A DNA stretch of 64,000 nt from Citrifermentans bemidjiense Bem. Its GTDB lineage: Bacteria; Desulfobacterota; Desulfuromonadia; Geobacterales; Geobacteraceae. The position numbers and the translations under genes were made by a program. The stretch covers positions 558,001 to 622,000 of the forward strand of contig NC_011146.1 in assembly GCF_000020725.1 (NCBI RefSeq), read 5' to 3'. A model generated the notes under the pieces. The model did no database searches. It had not been told where the DNA came from and saw only the letters and a list, made by a program, of their open reading frames with translations. Shown here piece after piece: positions 45,429 to 50,874 of this stretch (position 1 is its first letter; each line of letters begins with the position of its first letter).

Positions 45429-48400
45429 TCACCCGTCCAGAAAACCGACCCACTTCACCCTGAGCGTCGCCACTCCGAACTCCTCTTCCACTATCCCTTT
45501 GAGCAGGTAGGGGCGCCGCTGCGAGAGCTTCCGGCAGAACCTGGCGTAGACGTCCGGAAAGAAGGTGGCGTCGAAGATCGCCGTCACATCCTCGAACGAG
45601 ATAAATTCCATCGGCCTGCCGTGCTTGTCCTCCACCGTCTTCGTGGTGATCCACCATCCCACCATGGTCACCCATTTTCCCGTGTGCTTGATCAATTCCG
45701 AAGCCTTGATCGGCCGGTGCCGTTGCCACTGCTCCTTGTACAGCGCCAGCGGGTGCCGCGACACCAGGAAGCCGAGCGCTTCCACCTCCTGCCTGAGCAC
45801 CAGTTGCGCGTCATAAGGAGGAGGGTGCGGCAGCTCGGTCTTTTGTTCGAACAAAAGGGCCGTCGCCTGCTGCTGGAAGTGGAGCAACTCCCAAAGCAGC
45901 GTCGGGCGCTTCTCCTCCCCCTCCAGCGCGTCGAAGCAGCCGGCTTTTATCAGGCGCTCGGCATCGGCGCGCTGCAGCCGCGCCCGGCGCAGGAACTCCT
46001 TGAAAGAGGCGAACGCCCCGCGTTCCCGGCGCTCCTTTAAGAGCCGGTCCGCGCCGTCACGGGTCAGGCCGTCGATCTGCATCAGGCCGACCCTAAGGGT
46101 CTTCTCTTTGCCGGTGTAGTGGTACTCACTCTCGTTGATGTCCGGGGGGAGGATGGCAAGCCCCAGCCTGCGCCCCTCCGAGATGTAGGCGAACGGCGAG
46201 TAGTACCCCCCCTGGTTGGAAATCACCGCCGCGATGAACTGCGCGGGGTGGTGAGCCTTCATGTAGGCTGCCTTCCCGCTCAAGAGCGCGTAGCTCGCCG
46301 AGTGAGGTTTGCAGAAGGAATAGCCGGCGAAGGAGAGGATCTGGTCCCAGATTCCCAGCAGCACCTTTTCCGGGACCCCGCGCTCCGCGCCCCCTGCCAT
46401 GAACTTGTTGCGGAAATCCGCCAGCCGCTTCTCGCGGTGCTTCTTGGTGATCACCTTCCTGAGCTGGTCCCCTTCGCTGGCGGAGAAACCCGCGAGCTCC
46501 ATGGCGATCTGGGTGATCTGCTCCTGGTATATCGCTATCCCCAGCGTCTCCCCCAGTACGCTCTCCAAAAGCGGATGCAGGTGCGACCAGGGCTTTCCCT
46601 GGAGCCTCGCCACGTACTCCTGAATGAAGCTGTTCGCCGCGGGCCTGATGATCGACGACGCCTGCACCAGCACCTCGAAGAGGTCGTACCGGAAGGTCTC
46701 CGGCGGGGCGGTGCTGCTCCAGATCTTGCGCAGCAGCAGGCGCACCGAAGGGGATTCCAGGTAGAAACAGCCGATGGTGAGGCCGCGGCGCAGCAGGCTC
46801 TGCGTCCTCTCATCCTCCAGCGGGCGCCAGGTCGCGTAATCGATCTCCACACCCTTCTGCTCCTTCACCGCCGCCATTGCGTCGCGGATGACGGCGAGCG
46901 AGCGGTTCCCCAGGATGTCGATCTTCACCAGCCCCGCGTCCTCGGTCTGGTCCTTTTCCCACTGGATCAGCGGCAGCCCCTTGTGCGAGATTTCCACCGG
47001 GACGTACTTGCGGATCTCGTCGGGCACGATAACTAGCCCTCCGCAATGCAGCGACAGGTGGCGCAACTGCCCGTTCAGGCGCCGGGCCGTCGACATGATC
47101 TCCTGCCAGTCCGAGGAAAGCGACTCCCCCTTGAAGAGCGGGTGCCCGCTCATCGCAGCGGCGCTTTGCTCCGCGCGCCAAAAGCCAGAGATGCGCTCCG
47201 TCATCTCCTTGATCTCGTAGTCCGGCAGGCCGTAGACCTTGGCCACCTCGCGCAGCGCCGACCTCCCCTTGAAGCCCACCTGGTTCGCCACCATGGCCGC
47301 CCGCCTGGCTCCGTAACGCGCGAAGGCGAAGTCGAGGATGGCGTCACGCTCATCCCAGGGAAAATCTACGTCGATGTCGGGGGGATCGCTTCTCCCCTCG
47401 TTCAGGAAGCGTTCGAAGAAGAGGTTGTGCCGGATGGGGTCGACATGTGTGATCCCGAGGCAATAGGCGACCAGAGACGCCGCCGCGCTCCCCCTGCCGC
47501 AGGTTCTTTCCGACTGTTTGGTCAGTTCCTCCACCACCAGGAAGTAATGAGAGAACCCCTTGTCGCGGATGATCGAGAGTTCCTTGTCGAGGCGGGCCTG
47601 CACCCGGTCGGAGATACTGCCGTAGCGCCAGATTGCCCCTTGGCGAGCGCGTTCCAGGAGCGTTTCGAATGCCGCCTCCGTCCCCAGCTCCCGGAAAGCG
47701 GGAAAGATGGTGCTGGAGAAATTCCAATCCGTTTTGCAAAGCGAGGCGATGCGTATGGTATTTTGCAGCGCCTCAGGGCAATGCGGGAAGAACTCAGCCA
47801 TCTTATCTGGCGGGTAGAGCGCGTCCGACTCCGCCGCCGTCATCTCCGGCGTAAGTCGCGAGAGCTTAGTGTTCAAATGAATCGCCCGCAGCACCCGATG
47901 CAGGTGGAAATCGTCGAGCCTGCACTCCGCTAGAGCGTTTGGTCCATTCCCCCTCTCCCTCTGGGAGAAGGTCGGGGTGAGGGCGTCCGAAGGAGGAGCC
48001 TGTCCGCCGTAGCGCGGAGCGCGCAGCACGGCCCTCGACGTCGCCACCGGCGGCAGCCTGAGATCCCTTGCCAGCGTCAGAGCGTTGTGCATGGAGTGTC
48101 CCGGCGAGAGTTCCACGAACAGCCCCTCGTCCGACTTCCGTTTGAGAGCGGCCAGGAGCTTCCGGTCGTCGCTCAACACGATGATGCCGCGCCGGTACTC
48201 CGAAAGTGCCGGGATGAGGTCGAAATTCTTTTGGCAGTGCAAGTCCGAGATGAGGCGGGAGATGTTGGCGTACCCCTCCTCGTTGCAGGCAAGGAGGACT
48301 GCCCGGTTGTCTGGTGTAACAGCCTCCGTGCCGATGATAGGCGAGATGCCCGCCTCCCGCGCCGCATCGAGGAAGCGCGGCACACCGTAGAGGCCGTTGC

Positions 48401-48707: not shown

Positions 48708-49961
48708 TTAGCTTCTACTGGTCAAAGTCATATATTTATTCTGCTCCGGATCCCACTCCGGCGGCGGCTCGCTGGCCATAGTCGCCTCACGGCGTGCCGC
48801 CAGCCCCTTGCCCCAGCGCACCGCGTCGCGCCCATGCTTTTCCCGCAAGAGGTCCAGCGTCTCCTGCAAATCGGCCTGCTTCTGCGACACCTGGGCCGTC
48901 GCCGGCGCGAACAGGTCCATCTGTCCCGCGTCCTCCGCCACCTGGTCGCAACTAAGCCGCAAACCCTTCACCCTCTGCCGCCGTTTGCAGGTAGTGAAGA
49001 AGAGATCCTCCACCGCCGCCAGCAACTGCAGGTCCAGCGAAGTCGGCACCGGCAGCACCTTCTTTCCCTGCTGGCTCACCCCGTCCGCGTACATCACCGA
49101 AAGCGTCAGCTTGCGTGCTCCCTTCCTAAGCCGCCGCAACCGAAGCCCGCATGCCTCCACCAACCGCAGCAGCTCCGACAGCAGGATCGCGTCGTCGTTC
49201 TCCTCCTGGTCCAGCAGCCCCTCCTCCACGATCTCCGTGGAGAGCCTGGGAGGTTGAACCGGAGACCTGTCGATGCCGCAGGAGCGGTCATGCAAAAGAG
49301 GCGCAAAAGGGCCGACAGCAAGGCGGAGTTGCGGCATCGACAGCGACGCCACCTGCTCCACCCGCTGCAGGTTCAGATCCCGAAAGAGCAGAGCCTGCCG
49401 CGATTCCCCCACCCCGGGCAGCACCGAAACAGGAAAGGGCGCCAGAAAGCTCCGCTCCGCCCCATGGAACACGTCGTAGACCCCCGCCTCCTGCATCACA
49501 TCCGCAGCCACCCGCGAGACCAGCTTGTTCACCCCCGCCCCGGCCATCGCCTCCAGCCCCATCCTGTTCGCTATCGCCTTCTCCAGCCTGGCCGCGACAT
49601 CCCGCGCCGGCCCGAAGAGCCTGCGCGAAGCGGTGAGATCCAGGAACGCCCGCCCGGCCCCCGGTTCCACGATAGGGGTGAATTCGGCCGAGAGATCCTG
49701 TAGCGCTTGGCTTCCCTTCGCCATCAGGTGAGGGTCCGGAGCGATCACGATGAGCGCGGGGCAGGACTTGCGAGCGTGGTAGATGGGAGTCCCCGCGTGC
49801 ACCCCCTCCGCCGCAGCCTCCGCAGAGATGCACTGCAGCAGCGCCCGTTCCGAGTTGAGCGGAGCCACCGCCACCGGCCGTCCGCGCAGGTTCGAGTCGA
49901 CGACCCGGGCCAGCGCGATGGGAAAAGCGGGAACAGTTATGTGGAGGATTTCCCGGTCCAC
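48708..49961 (-). CDS. imuB: ImuB-like Y-family polymerase homologue lacking catalytic residues
   Basis: A 417-residue Y-family fold. In active Y polymerases the first motif is HxDMDxFFA; here it is ILHITVPAFPIALARV, without the metal-binding aspartate. The second motif (SxDE) reads GAGRAFLDLT, again without the catalytic pair. An HhH-like LPGVGESRQALLF and a little-finger region follow. This is the signature of ImuB, which recruits DnaE2 to the beta clamp instead of synthesising DNA. The GTG start overlaps the end of lexA by 25 bp, so it is cotranscribed with lexA and SOS-controlled. Confidence 0.85.
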   Translation of the reverse strand: MDREILHITVPAFPIALARVVDSNLRGRPVAVAPLNSERALLQCISAEAAAEGVHAGTPIYHARKSCPALIVIAPDPHLMAKGSQALQDLSAEFTPIVEPGAGRAFLDLTASRRLFGPARDVAARLEKAIANRMGLEAMAGAGVNKLVSRVAADVMQEAGVYDVFHGAERSFLAPFPVSVLPGVGESRQALLFRDLNLQRVEQVASLSMPQLRLAVGPFAPLLHDRSCGIDRSPVQPPRLSTEIVEEGLLDQEENDDAILLSELLRLVEACGLRLRRLRKGARKLTLSVMYADGVSQQGKKVLPVPTSLDLQLLAAVEDLFFTTCKRRQRVKGLRLSCDQVAEDAGQMDLFAPATAQVSQKQADLQETLDLLREKHGRDAVRWGKGLAARREATMASEPPPEWDPEQNKYMTLTSRS

Positions 49962-50686
49962 TTCTTATAAAACCTCATAGAGCCCACCAGCACGCCCCTG
50001 ATATGAAACTCGTCGTCTTCCGTCACCATGATGGGGCTCATCGCCGAGTTCGCCGGCTGCAACTGAATCGAATTTCCCTTCCGGACGTACTTCTTGATCG
50101 TGATCGAACCGTTCACCTCCGCGATCACCGTCTGGCCCGTCTCCGCCACAGCCTGCGGGTGCACAGCCACGTAATCGCCGTCCATGATCCCCATCTCCAC
50201 CATCGAATCGCCGCGCACCTCGTACACCACGTTGCCCGGTCCCGCCATCGCAGAAGGGACCTCGATGGCGTCCGCCAGTTGGAAAGCCTGCACCGGCCGT
50301 CCCGCCGCCACGATCCCCACCAGCGGCAGCTCCATTCCTATGATCGGTGCGACAGCAGGCGTTTGTGGATTTCCCCCCTCAGCAAAGTGCAGTTCCTGGG
50401 ATTCCGGAGAACCTGGAGAGTATTTGCCCACGAAGCGTTGCGCGAGAACTTGCGTCCCCCCCTTTGCGAAGGGGGGACAGGGGGGATTTGCCAGTTGCAG
50501 ACCTCGTTTCGCGTTCCACTGGCGAGTCAGGTGTCCGTCTTTCTCCAGAGCGCGCAAGTAATGCTGCACCGTCCCCAGCGAGCCGAAGCCGCATCCAGAG
50601 GCGATCTCCTGTTGCGAGGGCTGGAACCCGTGCCGCTCCGCGAATGACAAAATGAAATCAAGCACCCTCTTCTGTTTAGGCGTCAT
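49937..50686 (-). CDS. lexA: SOS repressor LexA with enlarged linker
   Basis: 249 residues; typical LexA is about 200. The winged-helix DNA-binding domain is 1-65 (TPKQKRVLDFILSFAERHG). The peptidase domain has the scissile A128-G129 in GIVAAGRP, nucleophile S161 in RGDSM and K198 in ITIKK. Residues about 67-107 (NPPCPPFAKGG to HFAEGGNP) are the translation of a palindromic DNA element and lengthen the hinge before the cleavage site. The start is the ATG at 50686 with GGGGGA upstream; a longer frame through the upstream repeats would be low-complexity H/P/T. It leads the lexA-imuB-dnaE2 cassette. Confidence 0.92.
   Translation of the reverse strand: MTPKQKRVLDFILSFAERHGFQPSQQEIASGCGFGSLGTVQHYLRALEKDGHLTRQWNAKRGLQLANPPCPPFAKGGTQVLAQRFVGKYSPGSPESQELHFAEGGNPQTPAVAPIIGMELPLVGIVAAGRPVQAFQLADAIEVPSAMAGPGNVVYEVRGDSMVEMGIMDGDYVAVHPQAVAETGQTVIAEVNGSITIKKYVRKGNSIQLQPANSAMSPIMVTEDDEFHIRGVLVGSMRFYKKWTGKSST
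50366..50491. repeat. Repeat element inserted in frame in lexA
   Basis: About 120 bp bounded by GGATTTCCCCCCT (plus strand, about 50373) and AGGGGGGATTTG (ending about 50491). It includes a CCCCCCTTTGCGAAGGGGGG palindrome. Similar CCCCCTTT/AAAGGGGG repeats are common in intergenic DNA; here it is translated without a stop. Confidence 0.7.
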
Positions 50687-50711: not shown

Positions 50712-50745
50712 TTGCGAGAATACTCGCAAGTTTGTCGTAAGTCAA
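50712..50745 (-). promoter_or_regulatory. lexA promoter with overlapping LexA operator candidate
   Basis: Minus strand: TTGACT (50740-50745), a 17-bp spacer and TATTCT (50717-50722). TTGCGAG-AATA-CTCGCAA (50712-50729), a perfect 7-4-7 palindrome, covers the -10. It is not the E. coli CTGT-N8-ACAG box, but delta-proteobacterial LexA proteins are known to use other motifs, so this is the likely local SOS box. Confidence 0.7.
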
Positions 50746-50874
50746 GAGAGGGAGAAAGGGTGAGGAAGAAGGAGAGAGGAGGAGGAGAGAGAGGAGGAGG
50801 TGGTGGTGAAATGGTGGAGGAGGTGGTGGTGAAATGGTGGAGGAGGTGGTGGTGAAATGGTGGAGGATGATGAT
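50744..50874 (+). repeat. C-free purine-rich tract with 23-bp minisatellite
   Basis: 131 nt without a single C on the plus strand. 50744-50800 is almost pure purine. 50794-50862 is three perfect copies of a 23-bp unit (GAGGAGGTGGTGGTGAAATG plus GTG). The tract abuts the lexA -35 box. Confidence 0.9.

Follow-up and report, generated by a model that had tools for sequence, protein, structure and literature searches.

In-frame palindromic repeats in the LexA linker and the DnaE2 polymerase of a mutagenesis operon of Citrifermentans bemidjiense and its relatives

Dispersed palindromes that lie in frame inside genes have been described before. The Rickettsia palindromic elements are one such case (Ogata et al. 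2000, 2002, cited in PMC10969869 and PMC3733652). Passages of PMC3733652 place REPs of the GTAG and CGTC superfamilies inside ORFs, often in DNA repair genes and explicitly in that for DnaE2, propose modular proteins and flexible loops as tolerant sites, and report different REPs at the same recB site in two Xanthomonas species. The same source argues that chance can hardly account for REPs in repair genes, among them those for error-prone polymerases; its main text has no occurrence of Geobacter or of LexA. For the G. bemidjiensis genome (4,615,150 bp), the main text of PMC2996986 describes palindrome-based repeat families, one of which occurs inside protein-coding genes, in all frames and with no frameshift. 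LexA does not occur in that main text, and the supplementary tables may list copies in lexA or dnaE2. Two described LexA proteins are also relevant. Pseudomonas putida LexA2 belongs to a cassette, lexA2-imuA-imuB-imuC, in which its control of the operon is reported in PMC3901139, and Mycobacterium tuberculosis LexA has an 18-aa hinge insertion, according to the relevant passage of PMC8607333.

The window analyzed here is a 64,000-nucleotide stretch of C. bemidjiense Bem (G. bemidjiensis in the genome report), contig NC_011146.1, positions 558,001 to 622,000; coordinates below count from its first nucleotide. The host group consists of iron-reducing soil bacteria. The window encodes a LexA with a repeat inside its linker, and the features concerned are as follows.

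49937..50686, minus strand: lexA, encoding the operon-borne LexA of 249 aa (Pfam and NCBIfam matches)
50366..50491, minus strand: in-frame insert, residues 66-107 (ANPPCPPFAKGGT...AEGGNP), delimited by genomic repeat matches and missing from element-free orthologues
50457..50489, minus strand: core of the repeat family REP1, AAATCCCCCCTGTCCCCCCTTCGCAAAGGGGGG, a hairpin with exact copies elsewhere in the genome
50366..50456, minus strand: tail of the insert; an 85% genomic match covers 50397-50492, and 50366-50396 is degenerate

A domain search of the 249-aa protein placed LexA_DNA_bind at residues 1-62 and Peptidase_S24 at residues 121-234, with a linker of approximately residues 63-118 between the DNA-binding domain and the S24 peptidase. 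The NCBIfam lexA model TIGR00498 was matched with 145.7 bits (cut-off, 110.95). The hallmarks of a LexA repressor are present (winged helix, S24 peptidase, Ala-Gly cleavage site, Ser/Lys dyad), and A128, G129, S161, and K198 are invariant among 20 aligned orthologues. The first-pass annotation, made from the sequence alone, had expected a lengthened but working repressor with these four residues and the winged helix intact; both domains and all four residues support that expectation, and the protein is probably functional. When the G. bemidjiensis genome (G000) is compared with G022, 193 of 196 LexA-domain codons, the stop included, specify the same residue and four-fold sites are identical in 73 of 100; the LexA domains, judged by their codons, are under purifying selection. 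An AlphaFold2 model (11 rows; mean pLDDT, 45.8) is confident in the DNA-binding domain only. Another LexA, of 208 aa, is encoded elsewhere in the same genome.

From the KRG motif to ELPLVG the linker spans 56 aa, versus 13-24 aa in six measured orthologues that lack the element, and thus about 32-43 residues are extra. M. tuberculosis LexA likewise has a lengthened hinge, but its insertion is shorter, and the passage of PMC8607333 that describes it mentions no repeat origin.

The extra residues are encoded by a dispersed palindrome, as the first-pass annotation had proposed for a hinge element with CCCCCCT ends and an internal CCCCCC...GGGGGG hairpin. Both of these are present in the insert, which corresponds to codons 66-107. 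We use the name REP1 for the family with the core GGCAAATCCCCCCTGTCCCCCCTTCGCAAAGGGGGGGACGC. A search of the genome with the DNA at 50340-50510 gave at least 53 matches at E <= 10, the query among them, and at least 28 at E <= 0.001, both being lower bounds obtained from the 40 of 50 candidates that were scored. Among the others listed, the best is 85% identical across 96 bp, and the genome also has stretches of 38-41 bp that match this DNA perfectly. The pattern AAATCCCCCCTGNCCCCCCTTYGCRAAGGGGGG, with up to three mismatches, has 14 occurrences in the G. bemidjiensis genome, that in lexA included, and its reversal has none. At the same tolerance the core pattern occurs in 18 of the 19 genomes of the genus, with 2-166 copies each, and has no copy in G027; the reversed pattern, as a control, matched nowhere in the 19. 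Thirty REP1 copies from 18 genomes have mostly one kind of core, and the tail is similar in many. The other strand of REP1 begins GCGTCCCCCC, with the GTC paired in the predicted fold (checked by eye for a GTAG/CGTC tag).

The REP1 palindrome is thus found outside genes as well as in frame inside the conserved gene lexA, and the lexA site is empty in relatives. This resembles the Rickettsia elements, dispersed palindromes in frame within genes of apparently functional proteins in the accounts given in PMC10969869 and PMC3733652. Organism and sequence are different, however, and few of the copies sampled here are intragenic.

An adaptation of the repeat to being translated was considered and rejected as an explanation for its open frames. 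The four cores are open in five to six of six frames because of base composition, as shuffled sequences average 5.2-5.6. The whole 126-bp insert is open in five of six frames; shuffled versions average 2.7 open frames, and 14 of 300 do as well.

An orthologue of this lexA occurs in 21 of 48 genomes of the family: in 17 of the 19 of the genus and in four outside it. Among the 17, the linker holds REP1 in 13, another palindrome in one, and neither in three (G013, G015, and G027). Linkers measure 13 aa in the three outgroups measured, 17-24 aa in the element-free genus members, and 41-85 aa in REP1 carriers. For the exceptional palindrome, in G025, a search of that genome at E <= 1 gave 24 matches, counting the one in lexA. 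The element's NPP starts 1-2 residues past the RGLQL motif in 11 of the 13 REP1 carriers and several codons further from it in G028 and G026; some linkers read as double or nested copies, that of G020 with two REP1 cores and that of G019 with a split core. The orthologue of G003 (L029) did not match the start pattern and is absent from the linker table and the tree; 12 nt separate its matches to residues 66 and 114, and therefore it has no insert.

These comparisons bear on whether the linker was simply inherited in its long form. If the LexA linker were ancestral and C- and G-rich by chance, its presence in most of the genus would be explained. Such an origin would not account for the identical and almost identical copies elsewhere in the genome, for linkers of 13-24 aa in three outgroups and three genus members, or for the different palindrome family in G025, and the genomic copies together with the short element-free linkers rule this very improbable reading out. 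The earlier suggestion that the block is an insertion therefore stands: an alignment of relatives' LexA proteins finds it missing from those same six, so that the relatives do not all share the linker, and the repeat has matches elsewhere in the genome. The implied view that the insertion is specific to this strain is ruled out by the 13 of 17 genus orthologues that carry REP1. In these 13 the family occupies one position or lies close to it, so that it was either inserted long ago or has been gained more than once in the genus. A tree built from the lexA domains and imuB requires at least four changes among the states none, REP1, and other palindrome, with 7 of its 17 inner branches weakly supported. 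Recombination has probably also moved linkers, since the lexA genes of G013 and G015 (L023 and L024) are identical over all 192 nt of the N-domain and all 72 nt of the linker and have diverged in the C-domain (92.4% identity); the shared tract carries the element-free linker.

The palindrome of an inserted repeat should erode under neutral drift, yet four-fold sites in the REP1 core are conserved above those in the LexA domains. Between G000 and eight Geomonas-side rows, 64 of 68 are kept in the core versus 453 of 704 in the domains; the difference has p = 5e-8, which is no true probability, as the rows share ancestry. A shortened core (L010), a split core (L013), and an element located elsewhere (L020) were left out of this comparison. 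As a codon control, the LexA domains of the same eight rows, which offer few such codons, retain 29 of 40 GGG and 6 of 16 CCC codons. Judged from the lexA sequences of ten genomes, plain drift does not explain the conserved core. Homogenization with genomic copies could account for its conservation, as could new insertions or selection acting on the hairpin; codon preference could explain part of it.

Selection on the hairpin would be expected if the element acted as DNA or mRNA, through pausing, mRNA stability, or polarity between lexA and the polymerases, with the peptide as a by-product. The insert is predicted to fold strongly (-52.6 kcal/mol; z, -2.4), a value matched by 3 of 200 shuffles, and synonymous sites are better conserved in the core than in the domains; both are consistent with such a role. 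However, the 61-nt stretch with the core hairpin alone folds no better than its composition predicts (z, -1.39; 15 of 200 shuffles as good), the gene order of the operon is unchanged in element-free orthologues, and no Rfam family gave a match. We regard a nucleic acid function as quite improbable.

The first-pass annotation recognized an in-frame hinge element and overlooked its operon setting. lexA is the first gene of an operon with the order lexA, imuB-like, dnaE2-like, for which the remaining genes and the upstream elements are as follows.

48708..49961, minus strand: imuB-like Y-family polymerase-like gene, 417 aa
45429..48518, minus strand: dnaE2-like gene for an error-prone DNA polymerase III alpha subunit, 1029 aa
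50717..50745, minus strand: predicted sigma-70 promoter of the operon, TTGACT-N17-TATTCT, from alignment of upstream regions
50721..50741, minus strand: direct repeat CTTACGA-N4-CTTGCGAGTA (CTTACGA-N4-CTTGCGA) inside the promoter, the proposed autoregulatory operator

The imuB label is ours: the gene's best NCBIfam hits are to DNA polymerase IV models and score under the respective cut-offs. This gene encodes 416-419 aa in 20 of 20 orthologues and has no insert. The motif CTTRCGANNAACTTRCGAGTA, at up to one mismatch, was found in all 21 family genomes with this lexA and in none of the 27 without it, which include incomplete genomes. Each of the 21 has a single occurrence apart from G038, which has two, and the motif is the same in orthologues with and without the element; the reversed motif, as a control, gave a single match in each of G011 and G012. 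This LexA thus heads an error-prone polymerase operon whose promoter contains a motif of its own, and the co-occurrence of motif and gene in exactly 21 of 48 genomes suggests that it is dedicated to that operon. Judging from the motif search at up to one mismatch, this LexA may control only its own operon. The arrangement resembles the P. putida cassette, in which a second LexA goes together with an error-prone polymerase operon; operon control is reported there, in the part of PMC3901139 drawn on here, and it is proposed for the present operon. In contrast to that cassette, there is no gene between lexA and the imuB-like gene, hence no imuA at that place, and the promoter motif is a direct repeat of the CTTACGA-N4-CTTACGA type.

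A second gene of the operon, dnaE2, also contains in-frame repeats.

47913..48032, minus strand: variable in-frame insert of dnaE2, from VATSR to DFHLHRV, 40 aa here versus 7 aa in element-free genes
47942..47985, minus strand: core (DALTPTFSQRERGN) of REP2, a second dispersed palindrome family, identified by genome matches

The dnaE2 insert is unrelated to the REP1 of lexA. At E <= 1, at least 50 REP2 matches occur in G. bemidjiensis, counting the one in dnaE2. The stretch from VATxR to DFHLHRV has 20-90 residues in 14 of 18 rows and 7 residues in four (G026, G027, G006, and G003); the 18 rows do not include G038 and G030, which the pattern missed, or G015, which was left out for its short contig. 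Among the 14 filled rows, inspection by eye recognized REP2 (LTPTLSQRERG) in 7 and a third family, REP3 (GTGTWRSQSP or its reverse complement), also in 7; the two occur together in three rows, and neither was recognized in three others. This parallels PMC3733652, where a repeat within the dnaE2 ORF and flexible segments as sites appear in the passages cited above. The difference is that here LexA and DnaE2 of one operon are affected across a genus in which relatives with empty sites are available.

REP3 has 56 copies in G. bemidjiensis and up to 254 in a relative, at up to three mismatches. It adjoins a Y1 transposase gene in two of the eight Y1 loci fetched, on both sides at L091 and on one side at L093. 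At L256, a locus chosen for its nearby REP3, copies flank a Y1 transposase gene on both sides, one of them as a shortened match. The start of REP3, GGGGACAG, fits the GGGGWSAS motif of TIR-associated transposases as quoted from PMC3733652. Neither REP1 nor REP2 was found in the eight Y1 loci. A Y1 tyrosine transposase is thus a plausible mobilizer for REP3, the one family for which these loci offer support.

To what extent such repeats are found in other genes was surveyed through ORFs that span a repeat copy and have Pfam domains on both sides of it. The better-scoring or longer of these ORFs, with at least 25-30 codons on each side, were taken for the Pfam test, so that other hosts may have escaped it. 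Among 30 REP1 loci of G. bemidjiensis (two overlapping), lexA is the sole domain-flanked host; 16 other spanning ORFs gave 13 without a Pfam match and three with a one-sided domain. In a wider REP1 sample of 126 loci, which cover 109 element places and count both overlapping loci and those of G000, lexA of two genomes is among the best-scoring ORFs, and none of the five other ORFs tested has a Pfam family. For REP2 in G. bemidjiensis, dnaE2 alone passed (30 of 50 matches with loci, 19 of them with a spanning ORF, 10 tested). For REP3 in the same genome a multi-ACP gene, which we label PfaA-like and which has four REP3 copies in frame, alone passed (30 of 56 copies examined, four regions tested), and in G021 dnaE2 was again the only one (30 of 184 copies at up to one mismatch, five ORFs tested). 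A genus-wide set of 30 REP3 loci (four also in the G000 and G021 samples; L271 and L273 disregarded) added a PfaA-like host in G025. In all, about a dozen distinct regions were sent to Pfam for REP3 and the G025 palindrome. Long ORFs over repeat copies at L061, L040, L055, L137, L136, L299, and L325 had no Pfam match and look like antisense frames. In the PfaA-like synthase, REP3 is translated between ACP domains, in frames that differ between two species (L281:3-2600 and L250:1-3030).

Three host genes were therefore found among the ORFs tested, lexA, dnaE2, and the PfaA-like gene, and two of them are in one operon. This, together with unrelated repeat families that share one site, sets the present case apart from the Rickettsia elements. 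The distribution is suggestive of the operon as a repeat hot spot but does not prove one, since the work began from lexA and came upon dnaE2 in the same operon. According to PMC2996986, 31% of the G. bemidjiensis intergenic regions that contain any multicopy sequence contain several of them together, and insertion is called not random. Our own count, in which two of three families lie within 400 bp of the center in just 5 of 72 G000 loci, adds nothing to that observation.

We consider it likely that REP1 entered the linker of the operon-borne LexA in frame, either early in the genus or repeatedly, and was kept because it is tolerated. Mobile palindromic repeats would land in many places, and in-frame copies would survive where a flexible segment tolerates extra residues. 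The operon appears to offer two places of this permissive kind, one in the linker of LexA and one in a PHP-region loop of DnaE2. Repeats from several families would have come to be translated in each of them, newer copies beside older ones, and existing repeats may gather further repeats. The changed linker would have few consequences because regulation by this LexA seems confined to the promoter of its own operon. The location of two of three hosts in one operon argues against pure tolerance, although lexA was the starting point.

That location could instead reflect adaptation. A longer LexA hinge, which in the first-pass annotation could change operator geometry or cleavage rate, and the DnaE2 loop might alter repression, cleavage, or polymerase activity and in this way set the induced mutation rate. 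In most of the genus, two genes out of three in this mutagenesis operon have inserts. This pattern, the strong conservation of the REP1 core in lexA, and the report in PMC3733652 of REPs in DnaE2 and other repair genes, with speculation in that passage about altered activity, are all in keeping with this. However, the inserts differ widely in length and sequence among related species and are absent from some, the promoter motif is the same with or without an insert, and the PfaA-like gene, with no known repair role, also hosts in-frame REP3. An adaptive origin seems unlikely. It is rather unlikely, too, that the damage-inducible mutagenesis operon is a preferred landing place, where unrelated families would enter the LexA linker and the DnaE2 loop repeatedly, drawn by its induction or by palindromes already there, or where the insertions would tune induced mutagenesis; if it were, repeats would shape the mutation rate of their host.

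Under the tolerance reading that we prefer, repeats have become protein sequence in the repressor and the error-prone polymerase of the same operon, apparently leaving LexA and DnaE2 unbroken, as far as their sequences tell. In-frame palindromes in genes and REPs in dnaE2 were already known; LexA as a repeat host and the accumulation in one operon are new here. Among the papers that searches of open-licence PubMed Central listed, supplementary files excepted, none was found to describe a LexA that hosts such a repeat. The filled and empty sites among 17 lexA and 18 dnaE2 genes provide a clean comparative case. Natural alleles with and without inserts make the argument advanced in PMC3733652, that such insertions are hardly fortuitous, directly testable in soil bacteria.

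Two further observations were made. In G038, an extra partial lexA copy with an internal TAG (C1:1012394-1012639) has its own copy of the promoter motif. In the window, a tandem repeat, GGAGGTGGTGGTGAAATGGT, lies at about 50795-50866, directly upstream of the lexA promoter.
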